From Candidatus Endomicrobium procryptotermitis (lineage in GTDB: Bacteria; Elusimicrobiota; Endomicrobiia; Endomicrobiales; Endomicrobiaceae), in assembly GCA_031279415.1 (NCBI GenBank), contig JAITIP010000038.1, positions 1 to 64,000 of the forward strand: 64,000 nucleotides of DNA, in the 5' to 3' direction. The notes beneath the pieces were generated by a model. That model saw only the letters and a program-made list of their open reading frames with translations. It did not search any database and was not told where the DNA came from. This document shows positions 1-22,400 of this stretch, one piece after another. Made by a program: the position numbers and the translations under genes. Numbering within the stretch: position 1 is the stretch's first letter; the number at the start of each line of letters is the position of its first letter.

Positions 1-120
1 TTGGCGTGAGTTAGGAGTTGATGTCAGAGCTTGGCGTGAGTTAGGAGTTGATGTCAGAGCTTGGCGTGAGTTAGGAGTTGATGTCAGAGCTTGGCGTGAG
101 TTAGGAGTTGATGTCAGATT
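1..120. repeat. Four tandem copies of a 30-bp unit
   Basis: Four head-to-tail copies of a 30-bp unit, identical except for the last two bases of the fourth. The unit is a multiple of three and in frame with the minus-strand phage gene, giving a 10-residue repeat (ALTSTPNSRQ). The array may continue beyond the window start. There are no spacers, so it is not a CRISPR array. Confidence 0.95.
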
Positions 121-2037: not shown

Positions 2038-2082
2038 TTTAAACCTCTTTAAAAACTTTTTTTTTTTATATATATTTTATAT

Positions 2083-5008: not shown

Positions 5009-5037
5009 TTTTTTTTCTCCATTAATTAAATATTATT

Positions 5038-6606: not shown

Positions 6607-6665
6607 TATATTTATTCCTTAACCCTGTCATTGCCGGCTTGACCCGCAATCTATCGTTGCCGTTA

Positions 6666-7397
6666 CTAGTAACCAATATTGTTATCGGGAATATTTGCTA
6701 TAACTTTTCCTGAAGTATTGGCAGCCTCTTTAATTCTTCTTGCATTGCTGTCAATACTCTTTTCTATTTCGAGACAATTTTGATATTCTCTAAAACTTTC
6801 AGCATAATCAAAGCCCATTTCATTTTTATATTTAAATATTAAACCTAATAGCAAAAGATGTGATTCAATTTCGCTTTTATCGCTGTCTTGCGTGAAATAT
6901 TCTTTAATGAGCAAATTATTTTCTTCATCAAAATTATATACGCCGCTTTTACTTTTATAAAAAAAACTTATTTTTGAATATAAAGAAGGATGTGGCATAA
7001 ACAGAATATGATTATTTTGCAAAATAAAATTTTCAGATATAGATGATGATGTCATGTTAATTCTATAAGCTATATACTTATCGTATGTTATGCTGTTAAT
7101 AGTTTTTTGTTGTGTTTCATTATAAATATAATCTGTTATAAAAGATTTAAAGCCTGGCGCAATAAGTTCTAGATTATACCCGTCTAAGACTGAATTATAT
7201 GCGGTTTGTTTATCAGCGGAAAATTGGCAAAATTTAACCATCTTTTGCCACTGATAGTCCATTAATATTTGTTCGAGAGAGCGGTTAAGCAATCCTAACA
7301 GCCGAAGGATTGTATAATCCTGAGTATTATTAATTGAACGTGGTGCAGAAAATCCTAAAGTCAAACAAGCCTGCTGGATTATTTCTAAACAATTCAT
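6666..7397 (-). CDS. Tail adaptor / head-tail connector-like protein
   Basis: 243 aa, with GAGGGGAA just upstream of the ATG at 7397. The start (EIIQQACLTLGFSAPRSI) and an early WQKMVKF segment resemble the P22 gp4/T7 gp11-like adaptor proteins of podoviruses, which dock on the portal and close the head after packaging. The remainder is mixed alpha/beta with conserved-looking DGYNLELIAPGFKSF. It lies between the small head proteins and the stabilisation/tail gene, as expected of a connector. Assignment rests on weak motif similarity plus position. Confidence 0.55.
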   Translation of the reverse strand: MNCLEIIQQACLTLGFSAPRSINNTQDYTILRLLGLLNRSLEQILMDYQWQKMVKFCQFSADKQTAYNSVLDGYNLELIAPGFKSFITDYIYNETQQKTINSITYDKYIAYRINMTSSSISENFILQNNHILFMPHPSLYSKISFFYKSKSGVYNFDEENNLLIKEYFTQDSDKSEIESHLLLLGLIFKYKNEMGFDYAESFREYQNCLEIEKSIDSNARRIKEAANTSGKVIANIPDNNIGY

Positions 7398-7432
7398 AAA
7401 TTCCCCTCATAAATTCCCCCTGTCGTTGTTAA

Positions 7433-7640
7433 GCAGAGCCGTTCTAACCTGCCGTCCGCAAGGACTGCTGCCTGCTAAGGCTGCCGTCCGCAAGGACTGC
7501 TGCCTGCTAGGGCTTGCGCCCCTTTATTATTGCGGCTTCCAACTGCTAGGGCTTGCCGTTTTAACCTGCTGCCTGCTAAGGCTGCCGTCCGCAAGGACTG
7601 CAGAGCCGTTCTAACCTGCTGCCCGCAAGGGCTGCTAGCC
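7433..7640. repeat. Mini-hairpin repeat cluster 1
   Basis: GC-rich block filling the gap between the adaptor gene and the small head-protein gene. It contains 12-nt mini-hairpins with GCAA or GCTA loops: GTCCGCAAGGAC (7454-7465, 7486-7497), GCCTGCTAAGGC (7470-7481), GCCTGCTAGGGC (7502-7513), the inverted form GGGCTTGCGCCC (7510-7521) and GCCCGCAAGGGC (7621-7632). Successive hairpins in the first run start exactly 16 nt apart, separated by TGCT or TGCC. A linker module AGCCGTTCTAACCTGC occurs twice. Confidence 0.9.
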
Positions 7641-7940
7641 ATTTGAGCTGGTGCTGGATGGTGTGCCGAAATTTTCAGTAAGCTCGATAAATCCGTAATT
7701 ATTTGCGGCAATAGGATAAATGGCCTTTCCTGTTGATCCTGCTTGTGCGGCCTGTCCTGTTGCTGTAAAAGATGCGCTGACAACAACCCATTGAACTGCT
7801 GTAATATTTGAGGCGGCTTTTACATATTCCACAATTTTACCGTCGGTTGTTCTACCTTTGGTACCGAGTTCAAATTGCATTGTATCAGTTGCTGCTAAAT
7901 TGTTTGCACCAATTATTGTGCTTATGGATTTATTGCTCAT
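7635..7940 (-). CDS. Small phage head protein (decoration-like)
   Basis: 101 aa from the ATG at 7940, chosen because AAGGAG lies 8 nt upstream; a longer in-frame extension would overlap the previous gene's coiled coil. The sequence SIIGANNLAATDTMQFELGT followed by GRTTDGKIVEYVKAA resembles a common small protein next to podovirus capsid genes, with alternating hydrophobic strands typical of a beta-rich decoration or head-fibre protein. It is five bases downstream of the preceding gene. Its last codons border repeat cluster 1, and the GTPSSTSSNG tail may derive from repeat encroachment. Confidence 0.6.
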   Translation of the reverse strand: MSNKSISTIIGANNLAATDTMQFELGTKGRTTDGKIVEYVKAASNITAVQWVVVSASFTATGQAAQAGSTGKAIYPIAANNYGFIELTENFGTPSSTSSNG

Positions 7941-7944
7941 TTTT

Positions 7945-8415
7945 TTAATTCTCCTTATTTTTTGTAATTTTTTCAAGCTTTTTTGTAAGATTTTCATTAT
8001 TTTTTGTAATTTCTTCAAGCTTTTTTGTAAGATTTTCATTATTTTTTGTAAGTTGATCTAAAGCATTTTTTGTGTCATCCAGTTCCTTTTTAGTTTGGGA
8101 GGCGGCTTCATTAGCGCCCACAACAACTTTACCTGGATTATTTATAAACGATTGCCAAGCGTCTGCAAACCTTTTTTTTAATGTTTCGCTTTTCTCATCT
8201 TTATCTAAAATCTCATGGCTTACAATATCTTTAACAGCGCCTGTTTGTACGGTGATATTTAATAAAATGCGCTTTTTAAAAATCTGTTTGCCGCTTTTTT
8301 TTGACTGCCATATATCAAGTGTTTCTTCCTCAATAAAACAGCCTAAAACATTTTCTATGTGTTTACCTGATTCAATTGCTGGATAATATGGGGTCTGGGT
8401 AAAAATTTTAGCCAT
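7945..8415 (-). CDS. Phage protein with C-terminal coiled-coil repeats
   Basis: 156 aa from the ATG at 8415, which has a strong AGGAGGAG 8 nt upstream; the longer frame starting further right would read through repeat sequence. The N-terminal 95 residues are globular and unrecognised. The C-terminal part is a coiled coil built from 14-residue repeats (ENLTKKLEEITKNN, then a near-identical copy), visible in DNA as a 42-bp duplication near 7965-8055. It lies between the capsid gene and the small head-protein gene. Its 5' end is duplicated upstream as a broken copy. Confidence 0.65.
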   Translation of the reverse strand: MAKIFTQTPYYPAIESGKHIENVLGCFIEEETLDIWQSKKSGKQIFKKRILLNITVQTGAVKDIVSHEILDKDEKSETLKKRFADAWQSFINNPGKVVVGANEAASQTKKELDDTKNALDQLTKNNENLTKKLEEITKNNENLTKKLEKITKNKEN

Positions 8416-8667
8416 TTTGCTTATTCTCCTCCTAATATTACGCTGTTCTAACTTGAGTGCGCAAGTAGTGCTTGCACACTGCAAAGGACTGGCACATTTT
8501 TTTGACTGCCATATATCAAGTGTTCCTTCCTCAATAAAACAGCCTAAAACATTTTCTATGTGTTTTTACCTGATTCAATTGCTGGATAATATGGGGTCTG
8601 GGTAAAAATTTTAGCCATTTTGCTTATTCTCCTCCTAATATTACGCCGTTCTAACTTGAGTGCGCAA
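8294..8667. repeat. Tandem duplication of a gene start plus flanking repeat
   Basis: A segment of about 170 bp (8294-8465) recurs at about 8496-8667 with only a few differences. It includes the first codons, Shine-Dalgarno and upstream region of the 156-aa phage gene. About 30 bp of mini-hairpin material separates the copies (GTGCTTGCACAC lies there), and both copies end at GAGTGCGCAAG, suggesting recombination between hairpin repeats. Confidence 0.85.
8498..8618 (-). pseudogene. Truncated duplicate 5' end of the 156-aa phage gene
   Basis: The duplicated start codon (8616-8618) and its AGGAGGAG ribosome site are intact. A two-base insertion shifts the frame, so translation would stop after about 20 residues (MAKIFTQTPYYPAIESGKNT). 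Beyond that the sequence matches the parent gene in another frame and then ends in repeat DNA. Confidence 0.8.
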
Positions 8668-8812
8668 GGACTGCCGCCTGCTAAGGCTGCTGCCCGCTAG
8701 GGCTGCAGAGCCGTTTTAACTTACCGCCCGCAAGGACTGCTGCCTGCTAAGGCTGCAGCCCTACTAGCGGGCAGCTGTCCACTAAGGCTTGCGGTGTGCA
8801 AGCACTAGGACT
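8640..8812. repeat. Mini-hairpin repeat cluster 2
   Basis: Fills the gap between the duplicated gene start and the capsid gene. Clear units are GCCTGCTAAGGC (8676-8687) and, exactly 16 nt on, GCCCGCTAGGGC (8692-8703). Further copies follow, including GCCTGCTAAGGC near 8741, a longer palindromic variant with GCCC and GGGC arms near 8758-8772, and GTGTGCAAGCAC near 8794. The linker GCAGAGCCGTTTTAAC is also present. The whole 8416-8804 gap without an intact gene consists of this cluster and the duplication. Confidence 0.85.
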
Positions 8813-9761
8813 TTAAAACTCCCTGTAAATTAGCATTTCCCATAGTTAGATTACCCATGAACAGCATTGGATATACTTCAGCGTCTTGATTATATGGAAG
8901 TCTTTCGCTGTCCAGTTTAAAATTTGCATCTTTATGAGCTTTAAAGAACAAATAATCGAGATTAAGTGTATAAGCATGCTGGGTGGGAACATATGGATCA
9001 AAAAACACGGGAGTTCCTTCATATTCCAGAGTTTTAAAACCGGCGTCGCCTTTAACATCTACAGTAATACGTTTTATTGATTGCAGATAAGTTTTATATA
9101 TTGAAAAATATACTTTATCCATAACAATCATTTGAGGTGTATCTGTACCTCTGGTGCATCTTAAGACGAGTTCGTCAAGCCCCTGAATGAACTCCTGTCC
9201 TGTTGGAAGTGTCCCGACGGATATACCCTGTTCTGCATTAAATGAATATACTTGATTTCTCCAAAATGGATAAGCGGCCCGGTCAATACCGCCGACAACT
9301 CCGGTTGAAGGGTTATCACTTATTAAAGCCTGTAACCCTGTAAGCTCTTTACCGGACGAACCCGTACCATCAGAAAATAAAGAAGCGCCGATTTTATTCT
9401 GCATAGTTTTTTCGCAAACAGAAATTCTAGCTTTTAACAAATTATGTTTCCTAGTTTTAGAATCTGCATTTTTACGAATTTCTTCTCCTGAAATTACAAC
9501 ATTTGCATTTGCCTGTTTCCACGCAAATTTAGCGGCAGTCAATACGGGGTTAGCTGTAACTTCAAGGAGTTCAAAACCTGAATACCATTTAAACGTTGAG
9601 TTCTCAGCATACATAAGGTCTTCTTCTATTTCATCTCCTCCGTCAAGAAGCGTTGTATTACTACCTGCTTTAAGTCTGTTAAGTAATGCATTATGTTCAA
9701 GCACATTATCAAATAAAGTATCTGAATATGCGTTAAGTGTTGCAACAATTAAATCTCTCAT
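8805..9761 (-). CDS. Phage major capsid protein
   Basis: 318 aa, AAGGAAA before the ATG at 9761. The pattern is that of a common HK97-fold capsid family of tailed phages: an N-terminal ATLNAYSDTLFDNV helix, FKWYSGFELL, WKQANANVVISGEEI, and in the middle LFSDGTGSSGKELTGLQALI with GGIDRAAYPFWRNQ. The C-terminal half contains strand-rich segments (TPQMIVMDKVYFSIYKTYL, YEGTPVFFDPY). No separate protease is visible and the N-terminus lacks a long delta domain. It lies directly downstream of the scaffold gene, the usual portal-scaffold-capsid order. Confidence 0.85.
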   Translation of the reverse strand: MRDLIVATLNAYSDTLFDNVLEHNALLNRLKAGSNTTLLDGGDEIEEDLMYAENSTFKWYSGFELLEVTANPVLTAAKFAWKQANANVVISGEEIRKNADSKTRKHNLLKARISVCEKTMQNKIGASLFSDGTGSSGKELTGLQALISDNPSTGVVGGIDRAAYPFWRNQVYSFNAEQGISVGTLPTGQEFIQGLDELVLRCTRGTDTPQMIVMDKVYFSIYKTYLQSIKRITVDVKGDAGFKTLEYEGTPVFFDPYVPTQHAYTLNLDYLFFKAHKDANFKLDSERLPYNQDAEVYPMLFMGNLTMGNANLQGVLKS

Positions 9762-9785
9762 TTTTAATTTCCTTTTTAATTTTTT

Positions 9786-11060
9786 TTATTCAAGCCTTTG
9801 AGCTTCTTCTCTTATAATGTCATCAAGCGTTTTTTTATACTTTCTTTCTGTTCCTATTGCCATTGAATCTGTTACGCCTATAGAACTTGCTTTTTTTGCC
9901 TTTTGCGCTGTAATTGCCTGTCGTGAATTATTGTCTGTAAAACCTTGCGGGTGAGGTGTTGTTATAAAATTGCCGTCTGCTAAGGCTTGCTGTCCTAAAT
10001 TGCTGCCTGCTAAGGCTTGCTGTCCTAAATTGCCGTCTGCTAAGGCTTGCTGTCCTAAATTGCCGCCTGCTAAGGCTTGCTGTCCTAAATTGCCGCCTGC
10101 TAAGGCGCCAGACCCGTTGTTAATTTCCCTGAGGACTTTTTCACGTACTTTAGGATTTAACCAGATAGCTTTTTCATATAAATCTGTTAAATCTGTAATA
10201 CCTGTTTGGGTTGCCAGTTGAGCCATATCCTGCTCAACTTCTTGGAAATAAGGATATTTTTTATTACCTTTTTCGTCTTGTGCATTTACAAATTTTTCCA
10301 GTTCATTTTCCAAATCTTGCTGAGCCCGTTTAACGTGCAAGGCTTTTAACTGCCTATTTTGTATTTCAAGGGGAGCAAGTCGATTATATACTGGGTCTGT
10401 TGCTCTTTGCGCCTGCTGTTTTAATCCATTTACTAACGTGTCAAAATTTATGCCTCTTTGAACCATTACATTAAAAATAAACCCTACTGGGTCTGCCGTT
10501 ATAAGCCTGTCAGCTTCAACTAAACTATTTATATATTGTGCTTTACTTATATTATTTTCTTCAAAATATTTATCGTGTTCACTTAACAAATCATTAATAT
10601 TGTTATATTCTTTTTCGAGTTTTTTAAGTTCTTGGGTCTTTCTATCATAAACGCTTTGAATATTTTTAAACATACCCATCATACGTTTTTTGCCGTCGAT
10701 ATCAAGAGTATTAAAAAAAGCTTTTTCTTCATCAGCCCAATACTTTAACGGTTCAATAACTTCTGTTACAGCTTTTTGAGAGTTAGACGGTTCTATATTT
10801 TTATTTATTCTGCTTTGTTCTAACTCATTGACCTTTAAATCAGCTATTTTTAAAGCGTCTGTAATATTCTTAGCTTTTGGTGCATGCTCGTACAAATTTT
10901 GTGCCTGAACTTCGTTGTGTTGCTCTGTAATATTCTTAGCTTTTGGTGCATGCTCGTACAAATTTTGTGCCTGAACTTCATTGTGTTGCTGTGTAGGTGC
11001 ATGCTCGTATAAATTTTGTGCCTGAACTTCATTGTGTTGCTGTGTACCATTGTTTTTCAT
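9786..11060 (-). CDS. Phage scaffolding protein with two sets of in-frame repeats
   Basis: 424 aa from the ATG at 11060, with AGAGGC 7 nt upstream; a longer frame to 11105 lacks a ribosome site. It is charged, helical and Q/N-rich between portal and capsid genes, the normal place and composition of a scaffold that is removed during head maturation. The N-terminus has three copies of a repeat around QHNEVQAQNLYEHAP, two of them followed by KAKNIT. Near the C-terminus there are four copies of NLGQQALAxG, encoded by a 30-bp DNA repeat that contains the same GCCTGCTAAGGC mini-hairpin as the intergenic clusters. The last 60 residues are basic and helical. Confidence 0.7.
   Translation of the reverse strand: MKNNGTQQHNEVQAQNLYEHAPTQQHNEVQAQNLYEHAPKAKNITEQHNEVQAQNLYEHAPKAKNITDALKIADLKVNELEQSRINKNIEPSNSQKAVTEVIEPLKYWADEEKAFFNTLDIDGKKRMMGMFKNIQSVYDRKTQELKKLEKEYNNINDLLSEHDKYFEENNISKAQYINSLVEADRLITADPVGFIFNVMVQRGINFDTLVNGLKQQAQRATDPVYNRLAPLEIQNRQLKALHVKRAQQDLENELEKFVNAQDEKGNKKYPYFQEVEQDMAQLATQTGITDLTDLYEKAIWLNPKVREKVLREINNGSGALAGGNLGQQALAGGNLGQQALADGNLGQQALAGSNLGQQALADGNFITTPHPQGFTDNNSRQAITAQKAKKASSIGVTDSMAIGTERKYKKTLDDIIREEAQRLE
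9970..10113. repeat. Mini-hairpins with 30-bp period inside the scaffold gene
   Basis: Five 12-nt hairpins (GTCTGCTAAGGC or GCCTGCTAAGGC) repeat with a 30-bp period, joined by TTGCTGTCCTAAATTGC. The period keeps the reading frame on the minus strand. The G/T change in the first stem gives a wobble pair and alters one residue (Asp versus Gly). Confidence 0.9.
10865..11045. repeat. Three in-frame repeats near the 5' end of the scaffold gene
   Basis: Two full copies of about 66 bp and one shorter copy of the same unit. They encode QHNEVQAQNLYEHAP with or without KAKNIT. Copies are nearly identical at the DNA level, with single-base differences such as GTT/ATT, indicating recent expansion. Confidence 0.85.
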
Positions 11061-11112
11061 GTTTTTGCCTCTGTTATATTTTTTCCTGCTTGTGCGCATA
11101 AGCACTGTCAGC

Positions 11113-11266
11113 CAAGCCGTTCTAACCTGCCGTCCGCAAGGACTGCCGCCTGCTAGGGCTTGCGCCCTGCAAAGGGCTTGCGCCCCTTTATTATTGCGGC
11201 TTCCAACTGCTAAGGCTTGCCGTTTTAACTTGCCGCCCGCTAGGGCTGCAGAGCCGCCGCTAGACC
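11113..11266. repeat. Mini-hairpin repeat cluster 3
   Basis: Gap between portal and scaffold genes. Units: GTCCGCAAGGAC (11132-11143), GCCTGCTAGGGC (11148-11159), GGGCTTGCGCCC (11156-11167 and 11174-11185) and GCCCGCTAGGGC (11235-11246). The first two start 16 nt apart. A longer shared module (GCGCCCCTTTATTATTGCGG and onward to CCGTTTTAAC) recurs almost unchanged in clusters 1 and 5, and in part in cluster 4. The portal stop codon lies at the edge of this cluster. Confidence 0.9.
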
Positions 11267-13218
11267 TTGTTGTCTTTATAAGCCTTTATAATATTATCTT
11301 GAGTTTTAAACTTTGCATCATTAATAATTTTCTGTTTTTCGAGTTCAAGTTCTTTTCCGTCTTTAATGGTTTCGAGTTCAAGTTCTTTTGTTTTTATCTG
11401 AGCTTTTAACATTTCAGCCTGAGCTTTTAACATTTCAGCCTGAGCAAGTACCTGTTCGGGAGGAGGAGGAGGAGGCTGTTTAGGGCTTTTAATTTTTTCA
11501 ATTAAAGCTTCAAGTCCGCTTTCAATTTCTCCCTGTAGTTCTAAAGGAAGACCTGTGCCGGAAAGAGCAAAAATGATCAGCCTTATAATACTGTCTGAAA
11601 AATCTGGATTTTGTGAAATAAAAGGCAGCATTGTTTGAATTATTCTAAATATAAATTCAATCATTGTACTGCGGATTTTAAAGCGTCGATTTTCGTCTTC
11701 AAAAATATCGTTGTCGGATTCGACACTAAAAAGATAATCACGCAATTTATTATCTTCGATATACGCTTTAATTTCTAACCAAGAAGGCAGAGAATAAAAT
11801 TTAATAGTCTTTGGGTTTAACGGTGGAAGATTTACGGGTATACCTTTTTGTATTCCCTGTTTTATTGTCTGCTGCCTTACTTTCATAAGCTCTTCAAACT
11901 GAATTTTTTCTTCATCAGAAGGCAGATTAACACCGGTAATATTTTGTAAAGTTTCAATGCTGAATAGTTCACATATAAGTGAACAAACAATTTTATATAT
12001 TTCTTTAATATAATTATTTATTTTTTCTTGCCTGCTGTGTAATCTTAAATTTCCGAACTTACTTTTTTTACTTATAGCTTCAGCTGTTTCATTTACGGCG
12101 CTTATGCTTCTCATAATATCGCTTATACCGGTTATCTCATAAATATTATTTATTAAATTCTGCTGTTGATTATACAGTCCTTCGGCCACTTTCTGTTTCA
12201 TTTCAATAGGGTCGTATGTAAATAGTTTATCAATTCCAAGTTCATTAATCTGGGAACTTACTTCAACTGCAATATATTCATTATCGCCTGCATTATTTAA
12301 TTTATCTGCGATTTGACGGTTAGAAGCTGAATATAAGGCTCTGGACTTTATGCTTTTAATTAAATTGGCTATTCTCTGTGAACATATGCTTAAATCGTGT
12401 GCTTCTTCCTTATACACCTCATATTCTGGAGTAGCTTTCAAATTGCTGTTATTTAATATAAATCTAAACGGTTCAGGTGTTGGAAAAAATCCCTCTATGC
12501 CATAGGGGTCTGTTTCTTCTTTTAAAATATTACGACACTTATCAGATACAAAATAGACTTTTTTATTACTTTTATCCCACATTTCCCAAACATCAATTAA
12601 CTCTTTTTGAGATTCAGAGGCTTTAAATTGTGGTTTTATTAACTCAGCATTGGGAAACTGCTTATAAATATCTTCTTCTGTCATTTTATGGCGTCGAGCT
12701 ATCCACCAAACTTGGTTCCATGTTCTCCCGGAGGAAATCAAAAAGTCTTTATAATAAACATGTTCAATTTTTACACGTTCGTTTGTTACTTTTGTATCAT
12801 TGCCAAGCTGTTGATATTGAGCATTAAAAACGCACCATAAAACGCCCTGACCGCTTAAAAGAATATCAAGTTTAAAAGATTCAACGACTTTTTTTATATT
12901 ATCGGTATTAATGCATATTTCTACAGCCTTTTTAATTATGTCTATAACAGTACTATAAAATAATTTCATTTTAGAATTGGTCAAAGTTTCTTTAGAAGTA
13001 CGCGGTCGGATAATTAAACGAGGTAAAGATGTAAACAATGCGGCAAACAATATTTGAGTATTTGCAAACAGTATATTATAGCGTTTATTTTTTTGTGCTT
13101 TTTTCTCTTCTGAAGCACCGCACGAATAAATATTTTCATATTCGTTTACATTATTAATCCAATCTTTACAGCGTTTTTTAGCATTATCTAAGCGCTCTAT
13201 AAGTTCATTTTGATTCAT
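11260..13218 (-). CDS. Phage portal protein
   Basis: 652 aa, GGGAGAT before the ATG at 13218. The N-terminal half has typical podovirus portal features: an early helical segment with NIYSCGASEEKK, FAALFTSLPRLIIRPR, DILLSGQGVLWCVFNA, and VYYKDFLISSGRTWNQVWWI followed by ARRHKM. The portal ring is the DNA gateway and terminase docking site. The C-terminus is unusual: a run of six prolines (about residue 593) is followed by AQAEMLK repeated twice and a charged coiled coil rich in E and K. The gene lies between the small ORF after terminase and the scaffold. Confidence 0.85.
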   Translation of the reverse strand: MNQNELIERLDNAKKRCKDWINNVNEYENIYSCGASEEKKAQKNKRYNILFANTQILFAALFTSLPRLIIRPRTSKETLTNSKMKLFYSTVIDIIKKAVEICINTDNIKKVVESFKLDILLSGQGVLWCVFNAQYQQLGNDTKVTNERVKIEHVYYKDFLISSGRTWNQVWWIARRHKMTEEDIYKQFPNAELIKPQFKASESQKELIDVWEMWDKSNKKVYFVSDKCRNILKEETDPYGIEGFFPTPEPFRFILNNSNLKATPEYEVYKEEAHDLSICSQRIANLIKSIKSRALYSASNRQIADKLNNAGDNEYIAVEVSSQINELGIDKLFTYDPIEMKQKVAEGLYNQQQNLINNIYEITGISDIMRSISAVNETAEAISKKSKFGNLRLHSRQEKINNYIKEIYKIVCSLICELFSIETLQNITGVNLPSDEEKIQFEELMKVRQQTIKQGIQKGIPVNLPPLNPKTIKFYSLPSWLEIKAYIEDNKLRDYLFSVESDNDIFEDENRRFKIRSTMIEFIFRIIQTMLPFISQNPDFSDSIIRLIIFALSGTGLPLELQGEIESGLEALIEKIKSPKQPPPPPPEQVLAQAEMLKAQAEMLKAQIKTKELELETIKDGKELELEKQKIINDAKFKTQDNIIKAYKDNKV

Positions 13219-13232
13219 AAATATACATCTCC

Positions 13233-13550
13233 CTAATAACTACCCTTTATAAACGTTTCTATAAGCGTTTCATAAATAATATATTTATTTCTAGTTTTTA
13301 TGGTTAAAGCCTTTCCATTTAATAATATTTTTATCTTTACATTTAAAATATTATTTGTATCAATACCATAATTAAACCCTTTAATTGCGCCTACATTTCT
13401 TAAAGCTTTTAAAAACCCGCCGTAATATCTATTTAAAAAACTTAACAAATCTTTATTATTGTTACCTTTATAATTAGGAATTTCAGCGCTGATAACATTA
13501 AGCCTTTTCACTATTTCATTTTTAAGCGATTCGACCGAATTTAAATCCAA
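13233..13550 (-). CDS. Small phage protein of unknown function
   Basis: 105 aa. The best start is a TTG at 13550 with AAGGAAAC 5 nt upstream; the frame overlaps the last codons of the terminase gene by about 10 nt, implying translational coupling. The protein is basic and mixed alpha/beta (FLNRYYGGFLKALRNVGAIKG, then NVKIKILLNGKALTIKTRNK). No family was recognised. Position between terminase and portal suggests a packaging or head-assembly accessory. Confidence 0.55.
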   Translation of the reverse strand: MDLNSVESLKNEIVKRLNVISAEIPNYKGNNNKDLLSFLNRYYGGFLKALRNVGAIKGFNYGIDTNNILNVKIKILLNGKALTIKTRNKYIIYETLIETFIKGSY

Positions 13551-14899
13551 TTCTGTTTCCTTTTTTTCATACTTGACAAAATATCATTAAATGTAATACC
13601 TTTTTTTTGTTCTTTAGCTTTTTCAAAAGGGCTTATATTTTGAAGATTATAAGCCAGTGCTGTATATCTTAAAGCGTCTGCACAATGAGAAGCCCAATCA
13701 TGCAATGGTTCTTGTTTATATATTCCTAGTACATCATTCCACTGTTTTTTATAATTTCTTATTGCTTCAATACCTTCTTTACATTTACTTTCATTAAAAT
13801 AAAATTTAGGAAAAAGAATTCTAACGGCATTAATTGAATCCCAAAGCGGCATAGCTGCTATAACTTCGACATCAAAGCCTTTTATATTTCCATAGCTCTG
13901 TGCAACTTCTCTGCTGCTTTTACCTGTTGACCAATTTTTATTTTCTGCATCATGGGGCAGAAACATTTTTTTAATTTTATATTCATGATTTTCAATCCAC
14001 GCCAAATAATGGGGTAAGGCTTCCATATTATTTTCATAATAATCCAAGAATAGAATTTTATTTTTAAGAAATTGTACAATCCAAATTGCTGTAGCGTCGC
14101 TTATACCGATATCGAACACTGCATAAACTGGATGTTCTGTATCAGGTTTAATATCTCCGATTCTGCCTTCAATTTCTGCCGCTGATATTTCATGTTTATA
14201 AACAGCACCTGCTACCATATTTTGAAAAAGTCCAAATTTAAATCGATTTTTTTCGTCTATACTTAGTCCGTCGAGAATATTTAAATACTCTTTAGGAAGA
14301 TTTTGTATATTATCCTCAGGATTAATAAATATATGTGCCACGCTTGACGGGTCTATCGGTGTATCATCCTGAGGGTCTTTTAACTGAATAAACTTTTTAT
14401 AACTCCAATGACCTTTAGTTGTTGGGTTCTCATCCAAATAAGCTATTTTACATAAATCATTCTTTTGCGAAAATCTCGTATTAGCTTTTAAATAACTTTT
14501 GTATGATATCTCAGAGACTTCATTAAAAAAGCCACCGCTAAACTCCAGCCCTAACACTTTATCAGTTCTTATTTTATCATCAAGTCCAACCAGCCAAATT
14601 TCGCTCCCATTGTTAATAAATTTGATAATCCAATCACTTTTATTTATTTTATATGGAACGCCTTTAAAGAAAAGGTTTAACACAAAGGGCAGGCTCTGCA
14701 TTCCAATAGAATGTTTAACATCAATAAACTGCTGTCTGAATATAGCATGCCTAGCTTCTTTAACTTTCAATGAGCGTATAATCAAATTTCTTAAAAATAA
14801 GGTAGTCTTTCCACTCCTAGAACCTCCGACAGCTAAAATTTCACGGGCACCGCTTACGCATAAATTACGTAACTCTTTTTGTTTTTGTGTAAGAAGCAT
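13541..14899 (-). CDS. Terminase large subunit
   Basis: 452 aa from the ATG at 14899, preceded by AAGGAT; an upstream in-frame start would overlap the small-subunit gene. It is the packaging motor: an N-terminal ATPase with Walker A GGSRSGKT (residues 25-32), an arginine-rich HAIFRQQF segment, and a Walker B-like FSGGFFNEVSEI; then a C-terminal RNase H-like nuclease beginning YAVFDIGISDATAIW with later acidic residues near DALRYTALAY. Length and motif order match terminases of podoviruses and related tailed phages. It lies directly after the small subunit, five bases apart. Confidence 0.9.
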   Translation of the reverse strand: MLLTQKQKELRNLCVSGAREILAVGGSRSGKTTLFLRNLIIRSLKVKEARHAIFRQQFIDVKHSIGMQSLPFVLNLFFKGVPYKINKSDWIIKFINNGSEIWLVGLDDKIRTDKVLGLEFSGGFFNEVSEISYKSYLKANTRFSQKNDLCKIAYLDENPTTKGHWSYKKFIQLKDPQDDTPIDPSSVAHIFINPEDNIQNLPKEYLNILDGLSIDEKNRFKFGLFQNMVAGAVYKHEISAAEIEGRIGDIKPDTEHPVYAVFDIGISDATAIWIVQFLKNKILFLDYYENNMEALPHYLAWIENHEYKIKKMFLPHDAENKNWSTGKSSREVAQSYGNIKGFDVEVIAAMPLWDSINAVRILFPKFYFNESKCKEGIEAIRNYKKQWNDVLGIYKQEPLHDWASHCADALRYTALAYNLQNISPFEKAKEQKKGITFNDILSSMKKRKQNWI

Positions 14900-14903
14900 T
14901 AAT

Positions 14904-15416
14904 TTATAAATCCTTATCTTTGCTGTCAAAATTCAATGTAATATTGTTTGGGCTTTCAATATTTAAATTAAACCTATTATCATCAAAGTTAATACCTAAC
15001 AATTTAAAACTAAGTTCTATAGCTTTTATCCGTGCATTTTGCACCTTTTCTCTGGTATCTGTCGCAACTTCTTTTAACTCTCTACAAAGCTCGTCAAACA
15101 ATAAAGCGCTTTTAGCTGCTATAGGTACACGTAATTGATGTATTCTCCTTAAAACCTCTGGGCGGTTAGCTAGTCTAGATGCTCGTTCCCAAATAGTTTT
15201 ATTATTGGCTTTACTATCTGGATAAGCTGTGATAAAAGCTTCAGTAGCATTTTTCATTTCTAATGCGACTAAATGACAAAACTTTTCTATTCTAGAATCC
15301 TTAAAATATACAGGAATAGACAATAAAAATTCCCGTTCAAATTCTAGCTGCAAAGGGTTTTTAAATTTTGAATCTGAATTAATAATGAAATCCTTTGCTT
15401 TTATTTCTTTATCCAT
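14904..15416 (-). CDS. Terminase small subunit
   Basis: 170 aa, AGAGGT six bases before the ATG at 15416. A helical protein with a central motif of the terminase small-subunit family: FCHLVALEMKNATEAFITAY, then ASRLANRPEVLRRIHQLR, a DNA-binding helix-turn-helix arrangement, followed by a helical oligomerisation region. It would recognise phage DNA and recruit the large subunit encoded immediately downstream. As the first gene of the late run it follows the repeat-rich 1-kb gap. Confidence 0.8.
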   Translation of the reverse strand: MDKEIKAKDFIINSDSKFKNPLQLEFEREFLLSIPVYFKDSRIEKFCHLVALEMKNATEAFITAYPDSKANNKTIWERASRLANRPEVLRRIHQLRVPIAAKSALLFDELCRELKEVATDTREKVQNARIKAIELSFKLLGINFDDNRFNLNIESPNNITLNFDSKDKDL

Positions 15417-15449
15417 CTTTAAACCTCTTTACCTTTTGCCTATATCTTA

Positions 15450-15580
15450 ATGCCGTCCTACTGCAGAGCCGTTCTAACCTGCCGTCTGCTAAGGCTGCCG
15501 TCCGCTAGGGCTTGCGCCCCTTTATTATTGCGGCTTCCAACTGCAAAGTGCTTGCACACTGCAAAGTGCTTGCACACTGC
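15450..15580. repeat. Mini-hairpin repeat cluster 4
   Basis: Units GTCTGCTAAGGC (15484-15495), GTCCGCTAGGGC (15500-15511, exactly 16 nt later), inverted GGGCTTGCGCCC (15508-15519), and two GTGCTTGCACAC copies (15548-15559 and 15566-15577, 18-nt period). Starts with the linker GCAGAGCCGTTCTAACCTGC and includes part of the shared CCCCTTTATTATTGCGG module. Confidence 0.9.
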
Positions 15581-15674
15581 AAAGATTATTTTGAAGTCAC
15601 GAGAATTTAAAAAAAGAGTTTACTTTTTATAAATACTGCGTACCCCTAATGTGTACGCTTCCAAAATAATCTTT
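15581..15674. repeat. Near-perfect inverted repeat, 16/17-nt arms
   Basis: AAAGATTATTTTGAAG at 15581-15596 is the reverse complement of CTTCCAAAATAATCTTT at 15658-15674 apart from one inserted C. The arms flank about 60 bp of A/T-rich DNA. Could be an operator, an origin element, or the stem of a long structured transcript. Confidence 0.8.
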
Positions 15675-15680
15675 ATATAA

Positions 15681-15735
15681 CCTTGCATACTCCTTGCGTT
15701 GTTTCTAACTTTCCGTTTTTAAGCCGTATGCAAGG
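15681..15735. repeat. Perfect 10-bp inverted repeat
   Basis: CCTTGCATAC (15681-15690) and GTATGCAAGG (15726-15735) are exact reverse complements, 35 bp apart. This is compatible with paired protein-binding sites in the phage control region. Confidence 0.8.
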
Positions 15736-15796
15736 GTAAAAAAGGGCTAAAAAAAAGGCAAGCCCTATATATATAAGGGTAAAAAAGGGCTAAAAA
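15732..15796. repeat. 22-bp perfect direct repeat
   Basis: A 22-bp sequence beginning AAGGGTAAAAAAGGGCTAAA occurs at 15732-15753 and 15775-15796, with a 43-bp period. Between the copies is AGCCCTATATATATAAGGGT, itself able to fold with the adjoining AGGGCT. Two copies are too few to be called iterons, but the arrangement resembles a replication or regulatory site. Confidence 0.8.
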
Positions 15797-15869
15797 TGCG
15801 ATTTTTTGCATAATTTTTTTAATGTTATAGACGAAAAAACATTTTTAATTTTTTACATTTTGGATACGA

Positions 15870-16016
15870 CAGCAGTGCTTGCACACTGCAGTGCTTGCAC
15901 ACTGCAAAGTGCTTGCGCCCCTTTATTATTGCGGCTTCCAACTGCTAAGGCTTGCCGTTTTAACTTGCCGTCCGCAAGGACTGCTGCCTGCTAAGGCTGC
16001 CGTCCGCTAGGGCTTG
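15870..16016. repeat. Mini-hairpin repeat cluster 5
   Basis: Two GTGCTTGCACAC units (15875-15886, 15891-15902, 16-nt period), the shared CCCCTTTATTATTGCGG module, then GTCCGCAAGGAC (15970-15981), GCCTGCTAAGGC (15986-15997) and GTCCGCTAGGGC (16002-16013), again exactly 16 nt apart and separated by TGCT and TGCC. Confidence 0.9.
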
Positions 16017-16288
16017 TTATTTTTTTATGTTTTTATGTAAATACCATAGCTTTTAATATTCCCGCTTTTTTTTTCTTTTTATTATTATTCTCTTATTTTT
16101 ATAAAAAGATAAAAAAATAACAAAAATAAAAAAAACCCTTGATAAATAAGAATTTTTTCGTGTTATATATTTTTTATTTTCATGTTATTTTTAATAAAAA
16201 AAGGAAAAAAGAAAGGAATAAACCCGCCCCCGTTTATTATTATTGAGCTAAAATCAGAATTATAATAGATTTTTAAAAAACAGATAAC

Positions 16289-16420
16289 ATGAAAAAGGAT
16301 AAAACAGCACACAAAATGGCATTAACAAGTGAAATGACAGTTATTAAAAAGCTCTTAAGAATTATTGGGAGCGGGTGGAAGCTGATTAGTCCCAACAGGC
16401 AGCGGTTCCAGATGTGTTAG
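16289..16420 (+). CDS. Doubtful small basic ORF
   Basis: 43 codons from ATG at 16289 to TAG at 16418-16420, overlapping by four bases the end of the convergent helicase gene. The peptide is basic (KKLLRIIGSGWKLISPNRQR). A TATAAT lies at 16261-16266 but no ribosome site is visible. No family recognised; it may be chance. Confidence 0.25.
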   Translation: MKKDKTAHKMALTSEMTVIKKLLRIIGSGWKLISPNRQRFQMC

Positions 16421-18090
16421 CCTGGGGGTTTATCTTTTTTAATTGAAATATTTTCAATAATGTTTAAAATTCTTTTATAAATGTCAATATCAGTTTGAAT
16501 ATCTAATTGTTTTAAAATTTTTTCAGTATTAGGTTTATCATTGGTTTGTATTTCACTTTCAATCTTTTGATTATCGATTTCAAGGGTTAAAATTTTATTT
16601 GAAAGTTTTTCTTTTATAGGTTGGACATAGAGTTCAAAAATAATATCTGAAATTACCTTTTCTTTAGATGTGCGGCCTTCTTTTATTTCTCGTGCTTCGT
16701 CTGGATTATATTGGCTGACAATATCTTGAAATTTATCATTATCTATGATTTCGACTTTTGAAACGATTAGTGCCTCATTACTTGGTGGAGATATTTTTTT
16801 TATAATTTTTAATTCAATAAGATGTTTTAAAGCATTTAAAATAAATCTTCTATCTCTTAGGCTTTCTCTGTCTTTATTTGTTATTTTTTTTATAATTTCA
16901 CGTACAGATAAGGAAGCAAAATGTAATTCGCCGCTTCTATAAAAACAATCGAAAATACTTAAAATATCTTCACTTGCTGCCTGAGGGCTTTTCTGATTCA
17001 TAGTTTGTACATCATACCAGGTATCTTTTGGGTCAGGGCAAAAAGTTATTAAATCAATCCATGCTTGTTTCATTTTGGCAGGTTCAGGTGGTTTTAAATT
17101 TGCGTTTACTTCGATTTCATTAAAAGGTATAAGACTGAAGCGTCGGTTTAAATATCTATTATTAGTGCCGCCTATTATAGTTAAATTTGTTTGAAGGCGT
17201 TCCATCTGTTTACCTTTTCTTTCAAAATCAATTTCAATTTTATCTATTATATTATTGATGACGTCAATATTTACATCGCGTCCGCGCTGGCTCTGCCAAA
17301 GCGCCTCGCCTATTATGCCCAGCTGTAATTTTTTGATATCAGAAGTAATAAATTTACCGCTCAAACCTGAAGTTGTTACATTTCCGGCGGCAATACCAAG
17401 TTCGAGGCATGCATTTTTTAAAGCTTTTAATAATTCGCCCTTACCGGTTCCGCCTATTCCTGAAAAGAAAAATAAAGCGTTAGGGGTTATAATTTGTTGA
17501 GAATGAACTTTATTAAAATTGTGTGTGAGACCATAGCGGAACCATTGAACCCATGAAACGAGCTTTATAACACTATCTTTAATATATAATTTATCTGAAT
17601 TATAAAGAATTATATGAACGGCTTTAATAAAACTTTCAATAAAATTGATATGTTTAGAAAATTTAAAATCATTAAACCTTTTTTGAACTTCTGTTAAATT
17701 TGTTTCATACATTTCCTTTTGTGCATATTCATACCCGTCGCAATACAAATTATATGAAATTTCGCTGAACATTGAGCCGATGGAACGACTATCAAACCAT
17801 AAAATATTTTGGTCAATAAACTCTTCGTCTTCTGAAAGTCCCAAAATATATTCATATCTAGTAGTATATTTTGGGCGGCCTAGTTTAGCGCATCGTATTC
17901 CGAATTTAGCTGCGGTCTTCTTTTTTTCAGAAATTTCACGAACCAGTGCTTTACGTTTTTTAATTTCTTCTTCTTTTTGTTTATTTTTTTTTTCTATATC
18001 GGAAATAACATTCCCATTTTTATCGATGTCAATATTTTTGGGAATATTATATTGTTGGTCGCTGGTTTTTGTTTTTTGTTCTTGGTTCAT
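16417..18090 (-). CDS. Phage D5-type helicase/primase-like replication protein
   Basis: 557 aa. Residues 205-330 form an SF3/D5-type ATPase: ALFFFSGIGGTGKGELLKAL with Walker A GIGGTGKG (211-218), a following LQLGIIGEAL acidic segment as Walker B, and a polar sensor-like TIIGGTNNRYL. These proteins unwind DNA at phage and plasmid origins. The N-terminal 60 residues are highly charged; residues 60-200 are not a recognisable primase, so a separate primase or a host one may be used. The C-terminal 150 residues look like a winged-helix region plus a charged tail. It is followed by the repeat-rich gap that could hold the origin. Confidence 0.75.
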   Translation of the reverse strand: MNQEQKTKTSDQQYNIPKNIDIDKNGNVISDIEKKNKQKEEEIKKRKALVREISEKKKTAAKFGIRCAKLGRPKYTTRYEYILGLSEDEEFIDQNILWFDSRSIGSMFSEISYNLYCDGYEYAQKEMYETNLTEVQKRFNDFKFSKHINFIESFIKAVHIILYNSDKLYIKDSVIKLVSWVQWFRYGLTHNFNKVHSQQIITPNALFFFSGIGGTGKGELLKALKNACLELGIAAGNVTTSGLSGKFITSDIKKLQLGIIGEALWQSQRGRDVNIDVINNIIDKIEIDFERKGKQMERLQTNLTIIGGTNNRYLNRRFSLIPFNEIEVNANLKPPEPAKMKQAWIDLITFCPDPKDTWYDVQTMNQKSPQAASEDILSIFDCFYRSGELHFASLSVREIIKKITNKDRESLRDRRFILNALKHLIELKIIKKISPPSNEALIVSKVEIIDNDKFQDIVSQYNPDEAREIKEGRTSKEKVISDIIFELYVQPIKEKLSNKILTLEIDNQKIESEIQTNDKPNTEKILKQLDIQTDIDIYKRILNIIENISIKKDKPPG

Positions 18091-18386
18091 AAATAATTAT
18101 AATTTACCGCTCTTTTAATATTATATATATCAGTAGTTTTTAAATATTTAGTTAATTTATAATACTGGCGCATAGATATAAAATTATAATCAAGAATTTG
18201 CTGTCTAGAAAGGCATAAAACATAAATCATATATATTAAAAGTTGAGCGGGCTTATTATAATTGATAAGGTTGTTTATATTTTTATGTCGCCAAAACAAA
18301 AATATTTTATAATCGTTATTATCTAAAATAGTTTCAAGCTTAATATTTTTAGTAATAATTTTAGGTGGTCTAGACATATAAATCAT
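18087..18386 (-). CDS. Small phage hypothetical protein
   Basis: 99 aa, start at 18386 with GAGGAG 4 nt upstream (an internal ATG at 18377 is a weaker alternative). Basic, rich in I, N, Y and K, with a possible helix-turn-helix-like QQILDYNFISMRQYYKLTKYLK near the end that would suit a small DNA-binding or replication-initiation protein. No family recognised. Its ends overlap both neighbours by a few bases, so it is co-translated with the YopX-like and helicase genes. Confidence 0.5.
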   Translation of the reverse strand: MIYMSRPPKIITKNIKLETILDNNDYKIFLFWRHKNINNLINYNKPAQLLIYMIYVLCLSRQQILDYNFISMRQYYKLTKYLKTTDIYNIKRAVNYNYL

Positions 18387-18756
18387 CGAACTCCTCGAAT
18401 TTTCTTTTAACTATAGTCGGAGTACCAGCATCGCAAAGATTATGAATGTGCCATCCGTGAATATTTTCATCGCATAAAATAAGCCATTGCAGACGTTTAT
18501 CAGAAAAAAAGACTTCACCTGTTAAAATATTATTAAACTTATCAAAAAATTTTAAGATATCGCCTTCAAAAATTTCTTTAGGCGTTATAAATTTATTATA
18601 TTGATATTCCATTAAGCCGCTGCCTTTTAAAATGCCGTTTACGTCATCAAAACCAACGATACGTCCATCAAGCAAAAAATAAAGACGACGTGATAAAGAG
18701 AAACCATCAATATCGTAGGTATATTTATTAATAATAACTTTAAAATTATTAAACAT
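18370..18756 (-). CDS. YopX-like phage protein
   Basis: 128 aa. The middle (LMEYQYNKFITPKEIFEGDILKF in sequence, residues about 49-70) matches the YopX family signature, usually [20 protein letters not shown], followed by a short beta strand GEVFF and a C-terminal IHGWHIHNL. YopX proteins are small, common in phages of low-GC bacteria and of unknown function. Shine-Dalgarno is weak (GGAAAGGT about 17 nt upstream). First of a three-gene run with the 99-aa ORF and helicase. Confidence 0.6.
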   Translation of the reverse strand: MFNNFKVIINKYTYDIDGFSLSRRLYFLLDGRIVGFDDVNGILKGSGLMEYQYNKFITPKEIFEGDILKFFDKFNNILTGEVFFSDKRLQWLILCDENIHGWHIHNLCDAGTPTIVKRKFEEFDDLYV

Positions 18757-18796
18757 GTTACTATATTTTATACCTTTCCGTTTTTAATCTGTCGGT

Positions 18797-18846
18797 GCGC
18801 AAGCCCTTTGCAGGGTGCAAGCCCTTTGCGGTGCGCAAGCACTGTC
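18797..18846. repeat. Mini-hairpin repeat cluster 6
   Basis: Short cluster upstream of the YopX-like gene, in opposite orientation to most units: GTGCGCAAGCCC, GGGTGCAAGCCC and the perfect GTGCGCAAGCAC. It is the rightmost copy seen; none was found in the chromosomal part after 19.4 kb. Confidence 0.8.
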
Positions 18847-18915
18847 AAATACTGCGGCCTCTGTAACAAGCGAGGTCTGGTGCGCTTGACAAAAGCCGCA
18901 GTAAAAGCACAAAGG

Positions 18916-19197
18916 CTAATAAGCCTGAGTGCTATTATTATTATCGGTATTATTATCAGTATTATTAATTGTAGTACGGGAATAACCGCCATGATGGTTA
19001 TGCATAATAAAATGTTTGGCACGCAAAATATCGTGTAAAATGATGCGTTCGGTCAAAGCAGAAGCGATAGTGCCGAGCTGCCAAAGAAAGAACCAGAAAA
19101 TTAAAGAAAAAATAAGCCAAGTGATTAAATACTTAATAGGTGAACGAAGAATACTGAGGTTAAGAGAAGTGTACAAATTGCGAAAAAAATTTTTCAT
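18916..19197 (-). CDS. Small single-pass membrane protein at the phage edge
   Basis: 93 aa from the ATG at 19197, with GGAGGT 7 nt upstream. A basic N-terminus (MKNFFRNLYTSLNLSILRSP) precedes one strong membrane segment (about residues 22-45, WLIFSLIFWFFLWQLGTIAS), then a polar tail with histidines and NTDNN repeats. The tail runs into low-complexity AAT repeats in DNA (near 18930-18970). A holin-like role is possible for a small phage membrane protein but not shown. The 234 bp to the right (19198-19431) hold no recognisable gene. Confidence 0.5.
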   Translation of the reverse strand: MKNFFRNLYTSLNLSILRSPIKYLITWLIFSLIFWFFLWQLGTIASALTERIILHDILRAKHFIMHNHHGGYSRTTINNTDNNTDNNNSTQAY

Positions 19198-19431
19198 AAA
19201 CCAGACCTCCATGAATTTATATATTATAGTGGTATGTGTGGTGATATAAAACAGCTAAAAAAAAATTCCCACCATAATACATCTTATCGGACACTTTTGA
19301 TTCTGTTCAAACTCAAAAAAAATCCGAGGCTGTTATACTCAGAAAAATTACAAACGAATTCCATAATATGATTGAAAATTTTTAGGAACAAATATCAAAA
19401 CTATACTCTGTATTGTTGTGTTATTTACCGT

Positions 19432-22400
19432 TTAGAATTGTATTGTAAGTTTTGAGACGAATGAAAGGTTTGTGTAGTTTAAGTTGGGATTGTATGTATA
19501 TTCGAATCTGTCATACGAAGCACCGAGCGTGATTCTGAAATATTTTGAGATTTCATAATCGGCACTTAGGTTTGCTCCATAGTTCGTATTATTGTCGGTT
19601 TCTATGTTGGTTTCCGAATCTTGAGTTATGTATTTTAGATTCGACAGGAAAATTATTCTATTTGTCAAAGGTATTATTTTGTTTATAAAAGGTATTTTTA
19701 TTCCTGCAGGAAGCGTTAAATCGGAGTTTATCTGGCCTAGATAGCTGTTTCTTAGCACCTGAGTTGCATATTTGCCTTCAGCATTTGTTCTCCACTGATC
19801 TTCATTTTCATAACGCAGGCTGAATCTCCATTTTCCCCAATCAAAAGCTCCCTGTCCTACAATTTTTTTAGCCAGTCCGTTGGATAAGCTTTTGCTCGTT
19901 TCAAAATCATCTTCATCCGTACCAGTGTTTTCAATCGAAAAATATAAATCGAACTTCTTAAACAGTTTACACCTATAATCAAAACCGTACATTATGTCTT
20001 CCGCATTGGATACTCCATAAGTAATTATGTGTTTATTGTGAAATTTAAAATTAAACTGAGTATCGCTCATCCACGATACAGAACCGAAAAATCTCTCAAT
20101 TCCGGACATTCCCACAAGTAGTTCCGGCCATATCTGCGTGTATACGTCTTTTATCGTTCCTGTAATGTATGAACTTTCGCTTCCCTCCGTGTAAGTAAAA
20201 TTTGCAATCAGCGTGTTTAAAGGAGAAAGATGTCCTTTTAGTTTGAAAGCTTCAAAAGGAGCGTACCTTCCGTTTACTCTGATGTCATCTCTGTTTAAAA
20301 TGCTTTTTACTGTATAAGAGTTTGAAGAGTACGAAGGCAGAATTTCCATAAGGTTATTGTTTCTTATCCAAAGTTTATCGGCTGAAAAGCCTGTGGAATT
20401 AAATTCTTTGTAGACGTTTTCATAGGAATCCGAATCCTGAAGCCTGTAATATGCCGAAAATACAAGGCTTTTTAAATATACGTTTGAAGCTATGTCATAA
20501 GCGTTTAGATTCCATGATATTTCGCCTATGCCGCTTCTTTCTATATATTTCTTTTCTCCGGGAATAATTAAATTTACAGGATTAGTACTTGAAATCACAT
20601 TATAATTTTCTTTAGTGTTTATGCTGTACGTGAAAGTCGGGCTGAACCAATTTATTATCCCCAAAACAAGACTTGCACCTACTGTCTGGTTTAGAGTTTT
20701 ATCATAACTTATTTCTTGTGCAAAATCGCGATTTTTTTCTCTGATTCTGTCCATCAAATACGAAGGAGAAAATAAAATACCTTTTGAAAATTTGAAAGGA
20801 AGTTTTACCGCAAACATTTCTGTCTGTTCAAGTGTGTGGTACTCGTTAATATCCAAATAAGATTTAAAAGCGTCCAGTCCTAAAAATGAGTCAGAGTCTG
20901 CCATCGGCGTCGATGGATATACTTTATAATACGAATTTATTATCTGCGCGTTTGCCATAACGTTTGTGGGCAAAAGAGGAAACACAACGGGATTATTATA
21001 GACTAAGCTTCCTGAAATAGTTTCTCTGTCTTCAAGCTGTTCTATTTCTGAAGAATCTATAACCGCTCTGGAATATTGTGCTGCCAATTTCGGAAAGTCC
21101 ACACCCAAATCAAGCGAAGTTTCTCCAAAACCAGAATACGTGACTACGGTTCCTTCTTCTTTAATTGAAATAAGATTGGAATTATTGTTTATAATGTTTG
21201 GCGTAACGGTTCTTGTCTTTGACAACTGAGCTTTTATCGGCAGTAGCATTAAAGTTTCGGTCCTGAAGCCGTCAAAAGAGACATAAGCCTTGTCTTCGAG
21301 ATAATCCCTGTTATACACTCCAGCGGTAACCGTTTGAAAATCTCTTTCAATAGCTTTTCTGTTTGCCCCTAAAGTTATCGCGCCTATTCTTTTTGAACCG
21401 TTCCAGCGTATATTTCCGCCTGCATGCCATGCCGTACCGTTAATTTTTTTGCTACCCATAACATGTATTTCGTTAAACCATACGTCGCCGTTCATTAATG
21501 GAACTGACGGAATTACTCCGACAGTAATCTGTGAAATCTTTTCAAGCGAAGGCGTACCGGAAGAAGTTATCACTGCGGCGGGTTCGGAAGAACTCCACCG
21601 CACTGCTCTGCCGCTTCCTTCTTGGTCTATTTTAATTAATTTCCATCTTCCTATGTCAGCCGCGTCAATATGGAGTTTATATTCGAAATAGTTATCGTCA
21701 TTGCTGCCGGCGCGAAAAATAATCTGGTCACCGGGCTGCGCATTTTTTGGAAAAACAAAAAAGCGGATGCTGTCATATTTTGAAATATCCAGAGCTTCTC
21801 CGATATATACAGACCTTGCGGTAATAGTTGAAACATATTGCAGTCTTAACGACTGTTCGTCTTTTTTTATGGAATTGTCTGTATCGTAAAGTTCCTGATA
21901 ATATGAGTTTGACAGAAGCGAAACATAGTCAGGGTCAGAAATGCCTATGGACGAAGTTACATTTAAAGGGTTCGAATCGGATTTTTCCCATTTATTTCCG
22001 ACGATAGAAATTTTTCCTATTATGATTTTTCCAGCCTGTCCGCCGCTGTTTCTAATAATTCTTAAACGCAGAATTCTTATATTTTTCCAATTTTCCGGAC
22101 TGCTCATATCCAGCGGGATTTTAAATCTTTTCCAGCCCGTCCAATCTATAGAATTATGCGTTATTCCATTTTCATCGGTAATTACTGCGGACGCAACACT
22201 TAAATCTATACCACCTGCGACATTTTCAAAAGTGTCAAGAATTCCATTTCCGTTTAAATCTTCAGTGTCAAGTTTTCCATTATGCGCGCCTATAAGTGAA
22301 GGCTGACCTCCGCTTACGTCATGAAAAGTCTGTCCCGTATCTTCCCAAGGACTTATAATTCCGTTGCCATCGGTATCTTCGGTATCCAGTAGTCCATTTC

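Follow-up and report, generated by a model that had tools for sequence, protein, structure and literature searches.

The DNA analysed here (hereafter the window) is a 64,000-nt stretch of contig JAITIP010000038.1 of Candidatus Endomicrobium procryptotermitis, and it carries a prophage. The phage genes that could be recognised are all on the minus strand: major capsid, portal, large and small terminase, tail and amidase. The major capsid gene (8805–9761, minus strand; phrog_9953) has relatives in G012 (70% identity) and in IMG/VR (58%). It is accompanied by genes for the portal (11260–13218, minus strand; phrog_12082), the terminase large subunit (13541–14929, minus strand) and the terminase small subunit (14904–15416, minus strand; phrog_51). 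Searches of IMG/VR with portal and amidase confirmed no phage relatives. To the right of the prophage, a 1776-aa open reading frame (19432–24762) partly resembles SprA/Sov, its TIGR04189 match falling short of the cut-off, and adjoins LptF/LptG genes. Two further repeats lie near the left end: four near-identical 30-bp tandem copies of TTGGCGTGAGTTAGGAGTTGATGTCAGAGC at the contig edge (1–118), with the same period as a coding repeat at 9972–10106, and GTCATTGCCGGCTTGACCCGCAATC in a phage gene gap (6630–6662), which we take to resemble a palindromic repeat of other bacteria.

Hairpin units among the prophage genes

Scanning for GC-rich units of the form NNNN-GCWA-NNNN with pairing arms (G–T allowed), we counted 37 at 7401–18900, against a mean of 0.85 and a maximum of 3 in dinucleotide shuffles. 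The same scan returned none at 1–7400 and one at 19401–64000, both at chance level. A sequence-only reading of this DNA had noticed at least 25 such mini-hairpins at 7.4–18.9 kb, in both orientations and with stem pairs changing together; the scan bears out all three points, with 27 units on the plus strand, 10 on the minus strand, and covariation among the window units. The stems are constrained, nearly all being G-N-N-Y/R-N-N-C. The 16-nt spacing it described is the commonest same-strand spacing below 60 nt (9 of 18; others include 30, 17 and 18 nt). Its clusters of up to five need amending: the longest run with this period has four units (7454–7513), and the run of five has a 30-nt period and is a coding repeat.

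The units form six arrays, several of them also found by search with a model (R2) described below. Array 1 (7440–7638, plus strand) has the leader GCCGTTCTAACCTGCC and units at 7454, 7470, 7486 and 7502 with the 16-nt period, followed by a minus-strand unit at 7510, a linker module and units at 7571, 7587 and 7621; R2 matches it at 7440, 7557 and 7607. Array 2 (8647–8809, plus strand; R2 search) lies downstream of the major capsid gene, with units at 8660, 8676, 8692, 8726, 8742 and 8794. Array 3 (11118–11250, plus strand; R2 search), between the portal gene and an open reading frame at 9786–11105 (minus strand), comprises plus-strand units at 11132, 11148, 11165 and 11235 and minus-strand units at 11156 and 11174. 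In array 4 (15470–15590; R2 search), plus-strand units at 15484 and 15500 and a minus-strand unit at 15508 precede a chain of alternating plus and minus hairpins (15548–15577). Array 5 (15871–16017) has minus-strand units at 15875 and 15891 and plus-strand units at 15970, 15986 and 16002, and includes the top R2 match in the window (15956–15984, 40.4 bits). Array 6 (18791–18846) is a chain of plus and minus hairpins upstream of the open reading frame at 18370–18756. Alternating hairpins with common arms make up a second layout, seen at 15540–15590, 11156–11185 and 18790–18846. Units are also enclosed in longer modules common to several arrays, for example GCCGTTYTAACYTGC and CTTGCGCCCCTTTATTATTGCGGCTTCCAACTGC.

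Most units thus fill gaps between phage genes, as had been described, the exception being five plus-strand units at 9972–10106 inside the open reading frame at 9786–11105, in 30-bp tandem repeats that encode NLGQQALA(D/G)G. The same frame holds 66-bp and 51-bp tandem repeats (10858–11040) encoding EQHNEVQAQNLYEHAPKAKNIT-like units. A degenerate plus-strand unit at 8457 and a minus-strand unit at 8468 (GTGT-GCAA-GCAC; together 8457–8495) lie where the two parts of a partial gene duplication join. This duplication (8289–8471 and 8490–8674) repeats about 200 bp of the 5' end of a phage gene at 94–95% identity and has hairpin units at its junctions. Mismatched units also occur (8660, 8726 and 18795), of which two are chimeric, GTGC-GCAA-GGAC at 8660 and GCCC-GCAA-GGAC at 8726, and fit recombination within arrays. 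The gap after the capsid gene contains no units in two related phages (capsids 70% and 58% identical), which fits a gain of units in the lineage of the window's phage.

Unit anatomy and covariation of the stem arms

Of 84,980 named genomes, a two-unit pattern matched one alone, the metagenome-assembled genome Endomicrobium sp. Gx485_bin123 (taken as G002), which belongs to the same genus as the window's host. A full unit spans some 29 nt and consists of NKTTCTARYTTGCC, a 4-bp stem closed by the loop GCAA or GCTA, and then C or T; the G002 consensus reads NKTTCTARYTTGCC, GNNY, GCWA, RNNC, Y, with a leader ending in TGCC. The G002 unit is often preceded by ACAAAGACTAAAGGAACGCNGCC, and nearly every copy of this leader continues into a hairpin. 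Loops following the leader in G002 are GCAA (35), GCTA (10), GTAA (2) and four others once each. The nucleotide after the stem (n = 75) is C in 35, T in 34, A in 5 and G in 1. A G at this position could form a fifth pair with the last base of TGCC; it is avoided, so the stem is kept at exactly four pairs. On G002 contigs L077, L078 and L074, some copies of the leader ACAAAGACTA are matched on the far side of the hairpins by an inverted version, TACTCTTTGT, a hint that a larger composite may end in inverted repeats. The core sites of integron attC sites read RYYYAAC and GTTRRRY; the leader CGTTCTAAYTTGCC, compared by eye with these consensus strings, does not fit them.

For an arm-exchange test, units in 448 kb of G002 were chosen by flank and loop alone, with the stem ignored. 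Four Watson–Crick pairs were present in 47 of 61 units, compared with a mean of 8.7 and a maximum of 18 in 2,000 trials with shuffled arms, which upholds the proposal that pairing rather than the letters of the stem is preserved, through a folded single strand. Alignment A3 agrees, with 97.8% paired (48.7% or less when the partner is slid) and a count of two-sided changes of 64, compared with 23.1 after shuffling, but the arm-exchange test is the cleaner of the two because A3 omits a few poorly pairing rows.

We then compared copies two at a time, keeping only pairs with three or fewer differences across their 26-nt leaders. Differences per nucleotide were 0.44 in the arms and 0.10 in the leaders. 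A lack of compensatory excess, which the sequence-only reading had named as evidence against itself, did not arise: two-sided changes outnumbered one-sided ones by 77 to 9, and one Watson–Crick pair replaced another in 72 of the 86 pairs that changed, these being pairwise counts that are not independent. Eight stems cover all 49 perfect copies in this set and many stem states are common to several copies, so the number of independent stem changes is closer to ten than to seventy. Counting distinct sequences on the GCWA strand, T–G wobbles exceed C–A mismatches (5 versus 1 in the window, 5 versus 2 in G002; small numbers). The GCWA strand may therefore be the one that folds, although an asymmetry of this size is only suggestive of a single folded strand.

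Such a pattern could arise by neutral fold-back copying alone, in which a nascent strand at a stable GNNA DNA mini-hairpin rewrites one arm from the other by template-switch mutation, with no need for selection or mobility. Monttinen and Loytynoja found template-switch footprints to be enriched at 4-nt and GNRA loops (PMC8794818), and the loops here are GCAA, GCTA or GTAA; the vast excess of two-sided over one-sided changes and the retention of the loops are likewise as expected. However, this process should at times yield stems longer than 4 bp, yet G follows the stem in only 1 of 75 units, and it explains neither the dispersal of the leader together with the hairpin nor the tolerated G–T wobble forms in the window. 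We consider it unlikely as the sole explanation.

Distribution across genomes and orientation

We built model R1 from 28 units and model R2 from 57 units drawn only from G002, and searched both across related genomes; these are drafts, copy counts are limited by a ceiling on the candidates scored, the E-values of such short models are rough, and the gene calls in G002 are simple open-reading-frame calls. G002 contains at least 126 dispersed copies, mostly within or at the edges of intergenic gaps. G004, G003 and G001 have a few copies, as does G012 (another genus of the same family); in the remaining relatives and in the genomes sampled from the phylum, matches stay close to background. Copy number thus varies more than tenfold among species of one genus. 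Several further families of short repeats, over-represented and in part palindromic, occur on G002 contigs L073–L092 as well; CGGGAATCC, AATTCCCCCTTTAAAGGGGGTGG and TAATTACTAATTAC are examples.

In the window, R2 gave 15 matches at E = 0.001 or better, all at 7.4–16 kb and scoring up to 40.4 bits. On other contigs of the window's own genome, the same model, built from another species, found nine further solitary places (E < 0.01). The remark that none was noticed in the chromosome to the right therefore stands within the window and fails for the genome as a whole, and the idea of a phage-specific invader gives way to that of a dispersed chromosomal repeat of Endomicrobium that also loads the prophage. 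Given the matches in G002 and in the host's own genome, a genus-wide repeat is locally concentrated in the prophage arrays, at a density (37 units in 11.5 kb) far exceeding that in G002. Among the host's own copies that were read out, several lack one of the four stem pairs (GCCC/GAGC, GGCC/GGAC, GGCT/AGGC), whereas those in G002 are mostly perfect; the former look old and partly decayed. Long exact unit patterns and a 26-nt two-unit pattern had no matches in IMG/VR, and array 1 had none among phage records. Overall, the sequence-only reading was partly confirmed in its observation and partly supported in its interpretation.

Orientation is even with respect to genes: between codirectional genes on 38 contigs, 24 clusters face one way and 23 the other. 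An antisense bias seen at the level of units (19 versus 8 in 20 contigs), where arrays are counted repeatedly, was gone at this cluster level and was discarded. Neither was there a bias by replication strand as judged by GC skew (37 versus 29 clusters, p = 0.39). This evenness argues against a messenger-RNA element. Rfam had no match over 6500–19300 up to E = 1, and the units as a rule have no following T-run, so they would be weak terminators.

Strong covariation would ordinarily suggest RNA elements, that is, GNNA-tetraloop hairpins acting in transcripts through mRNA stability, protein binding or as small RNAs. The T–G wobbles on the GCWA strand, the identity of the loop GCAA as a GNRA tetraloop, and an RNA folding energy somewhat better for the GCWA strand in the units tested all point the same way. 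Set against these are the even division of clusters between gene orientations, the lack of an Rfam match, the antisense position of most prophage units relative to genes, the tenfold-plus differences in copy number within a genus and the repeats within the coding region at 9786–11105, and we regard an RNA role as improbable. No better placed is the view that the units are degraded copies of one longer repeat, their palindromes incidental and their stem variety a shuffling of founder hairpins: it draws on the longer modules that enclose units, the chimeric units at 8660 and 8726 and the identical stems of many copies, but shuffling accounts for the reuse and not the origin of some ten distinct, perfectly paired stems, and arms far more variable than their flanks are the reverse of decay.

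A probable REP-like hairpin repeat and its possible spread

In these units the genus Endomicrobium (Elusimicrobiota) probably has a REP-like family of short DNA palindromes, which the prophage acquired and amplified. We favour a hairpin that is putatively mobile, or once was, with stems that are replaced whole, by rewriting or by exchange. Some agent would read or copy the folded strand with the GCWA loop, checking flank, loop and pairing while ignoring the letters of the stem, much as group-3 TnpA-REP enzymes do on their REPs. In Marinomonas, such an enzyme needs a perfect stem, leaves stem positions 2–3 and loop position 3 free, and uses an unpaired tetranucleotide (PMC8266576). The stem would change as a unit, with one arm recopied from the other by fold-back or the entire hairpin exchanged, and the 16-nt arrays would expand through tandem slippage or recombination. 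Because the prophage is so densely loaded and the host's own copies look older, we infer that a phage lineage in a repeat-rich, G002-like host filled its gene gaps there and then brought the repeats into the present host.

Insertion is suggested by the unit-free gaps of the two related phages and by G002 contig L080, where a 16-nt linker and unit split a repeat leader (GACTA, then CCCCGCCTGCAAAGGC, then AAGGAACG). A clean empty site between genomes was not found at the one orthologous locus tried, where the alignment was lost and upstream synteny was broken. A Y1 transposase (PF01797, E < 0.001) is absent from the drafts of G000, G002 and G012, all of which carry units, and was therefore rejected as the resident mobiliser; PF01797 is present in G001 and G004, both with few units. 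A more tentative and somewhat doubtful extension is that the family represents a mobile DNA hairpin of a new kind, which a non-Y1 enzyme spreads and phages carry between hosts, and in which each round of copying can rewrite the 4-bp stem by fold-back while flank, loop and pairing stay fixed.

The repeat shares with GTAG REPs and REPINs its short, dispersed, intergenic palindromes and an unpaired tetranucleotide beside the hairpin, and also its occurrence as singles, inverted pairs, arrays and occasional intragenic copies (PMC8266576, PMC3733652). With the Marinomonas group-3 REPs it has in common perfect pairing, free inner stem letters and one free loop position (here GC[AT]A). Dispersed, high-copy intergenic palindromes are present (at least 126 in G002), but the tag is TGCC rather than GTAG, the stem is exactly 4 bp rather than 5–13 bp (PMC3733652), the loop is GCWA, and the associated Y1 transposase (RAYT) of a REPtron is lacking in G000, G002 and G012. 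Since tag, stem length and transposase all differ, we call the repeat REP-like and do not class it as REP. CGTC repeats, which include the Rickettsia palindromic elements, are also short palindromes in intergenic and coding DNA and likewise have no associated transposase (PMC3733652); they differ in their CGTC tag, 8–9 bp stem and CCA tail, where the Endomicrobium unit has TGCC, 4 bp and C or T after the stem. Mitochondrial repetitive hairpin elements and GC clusters of sponges, yeast and Allomyces similarly fill gaps in AT-rich genomes with GC-rich hairpins, are lineage-restricted and insert in tandem (PMC2800124), but in the sponge elements stems are conserved and loops vary, the opposite of what we see. 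Hairpins maintained by template switching in rRNA genes show compensatory stem changes with a retained tetraloop (PMC8794818); those are single loci in genes, whereas the Endomicrobium family is a dispersed repeat with a fixed 4-bp stem. The impression that no such element was known therefore stands only for this family, unreported in the literature searched, REP repeats with complementary stem variation having been described before (PMC3733652).

On the best reading, then, Endomicrobium has a new family of REP-like DNA hairpins that are recognised or copied while folded as a single strand and that the phage carries. Covariation is usually read as proving that an RNA is functional; here it is strong yet comes without transcript orientation, which calls for caution in that reading. 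The family bears on how REP-like repeats spread without a transposase, offering a minimal hairpin, a contrast in copy number between close species, and stems that possibly record copying or repair events. Comparison of close strains could separate selection, fold-back copying and transposition.
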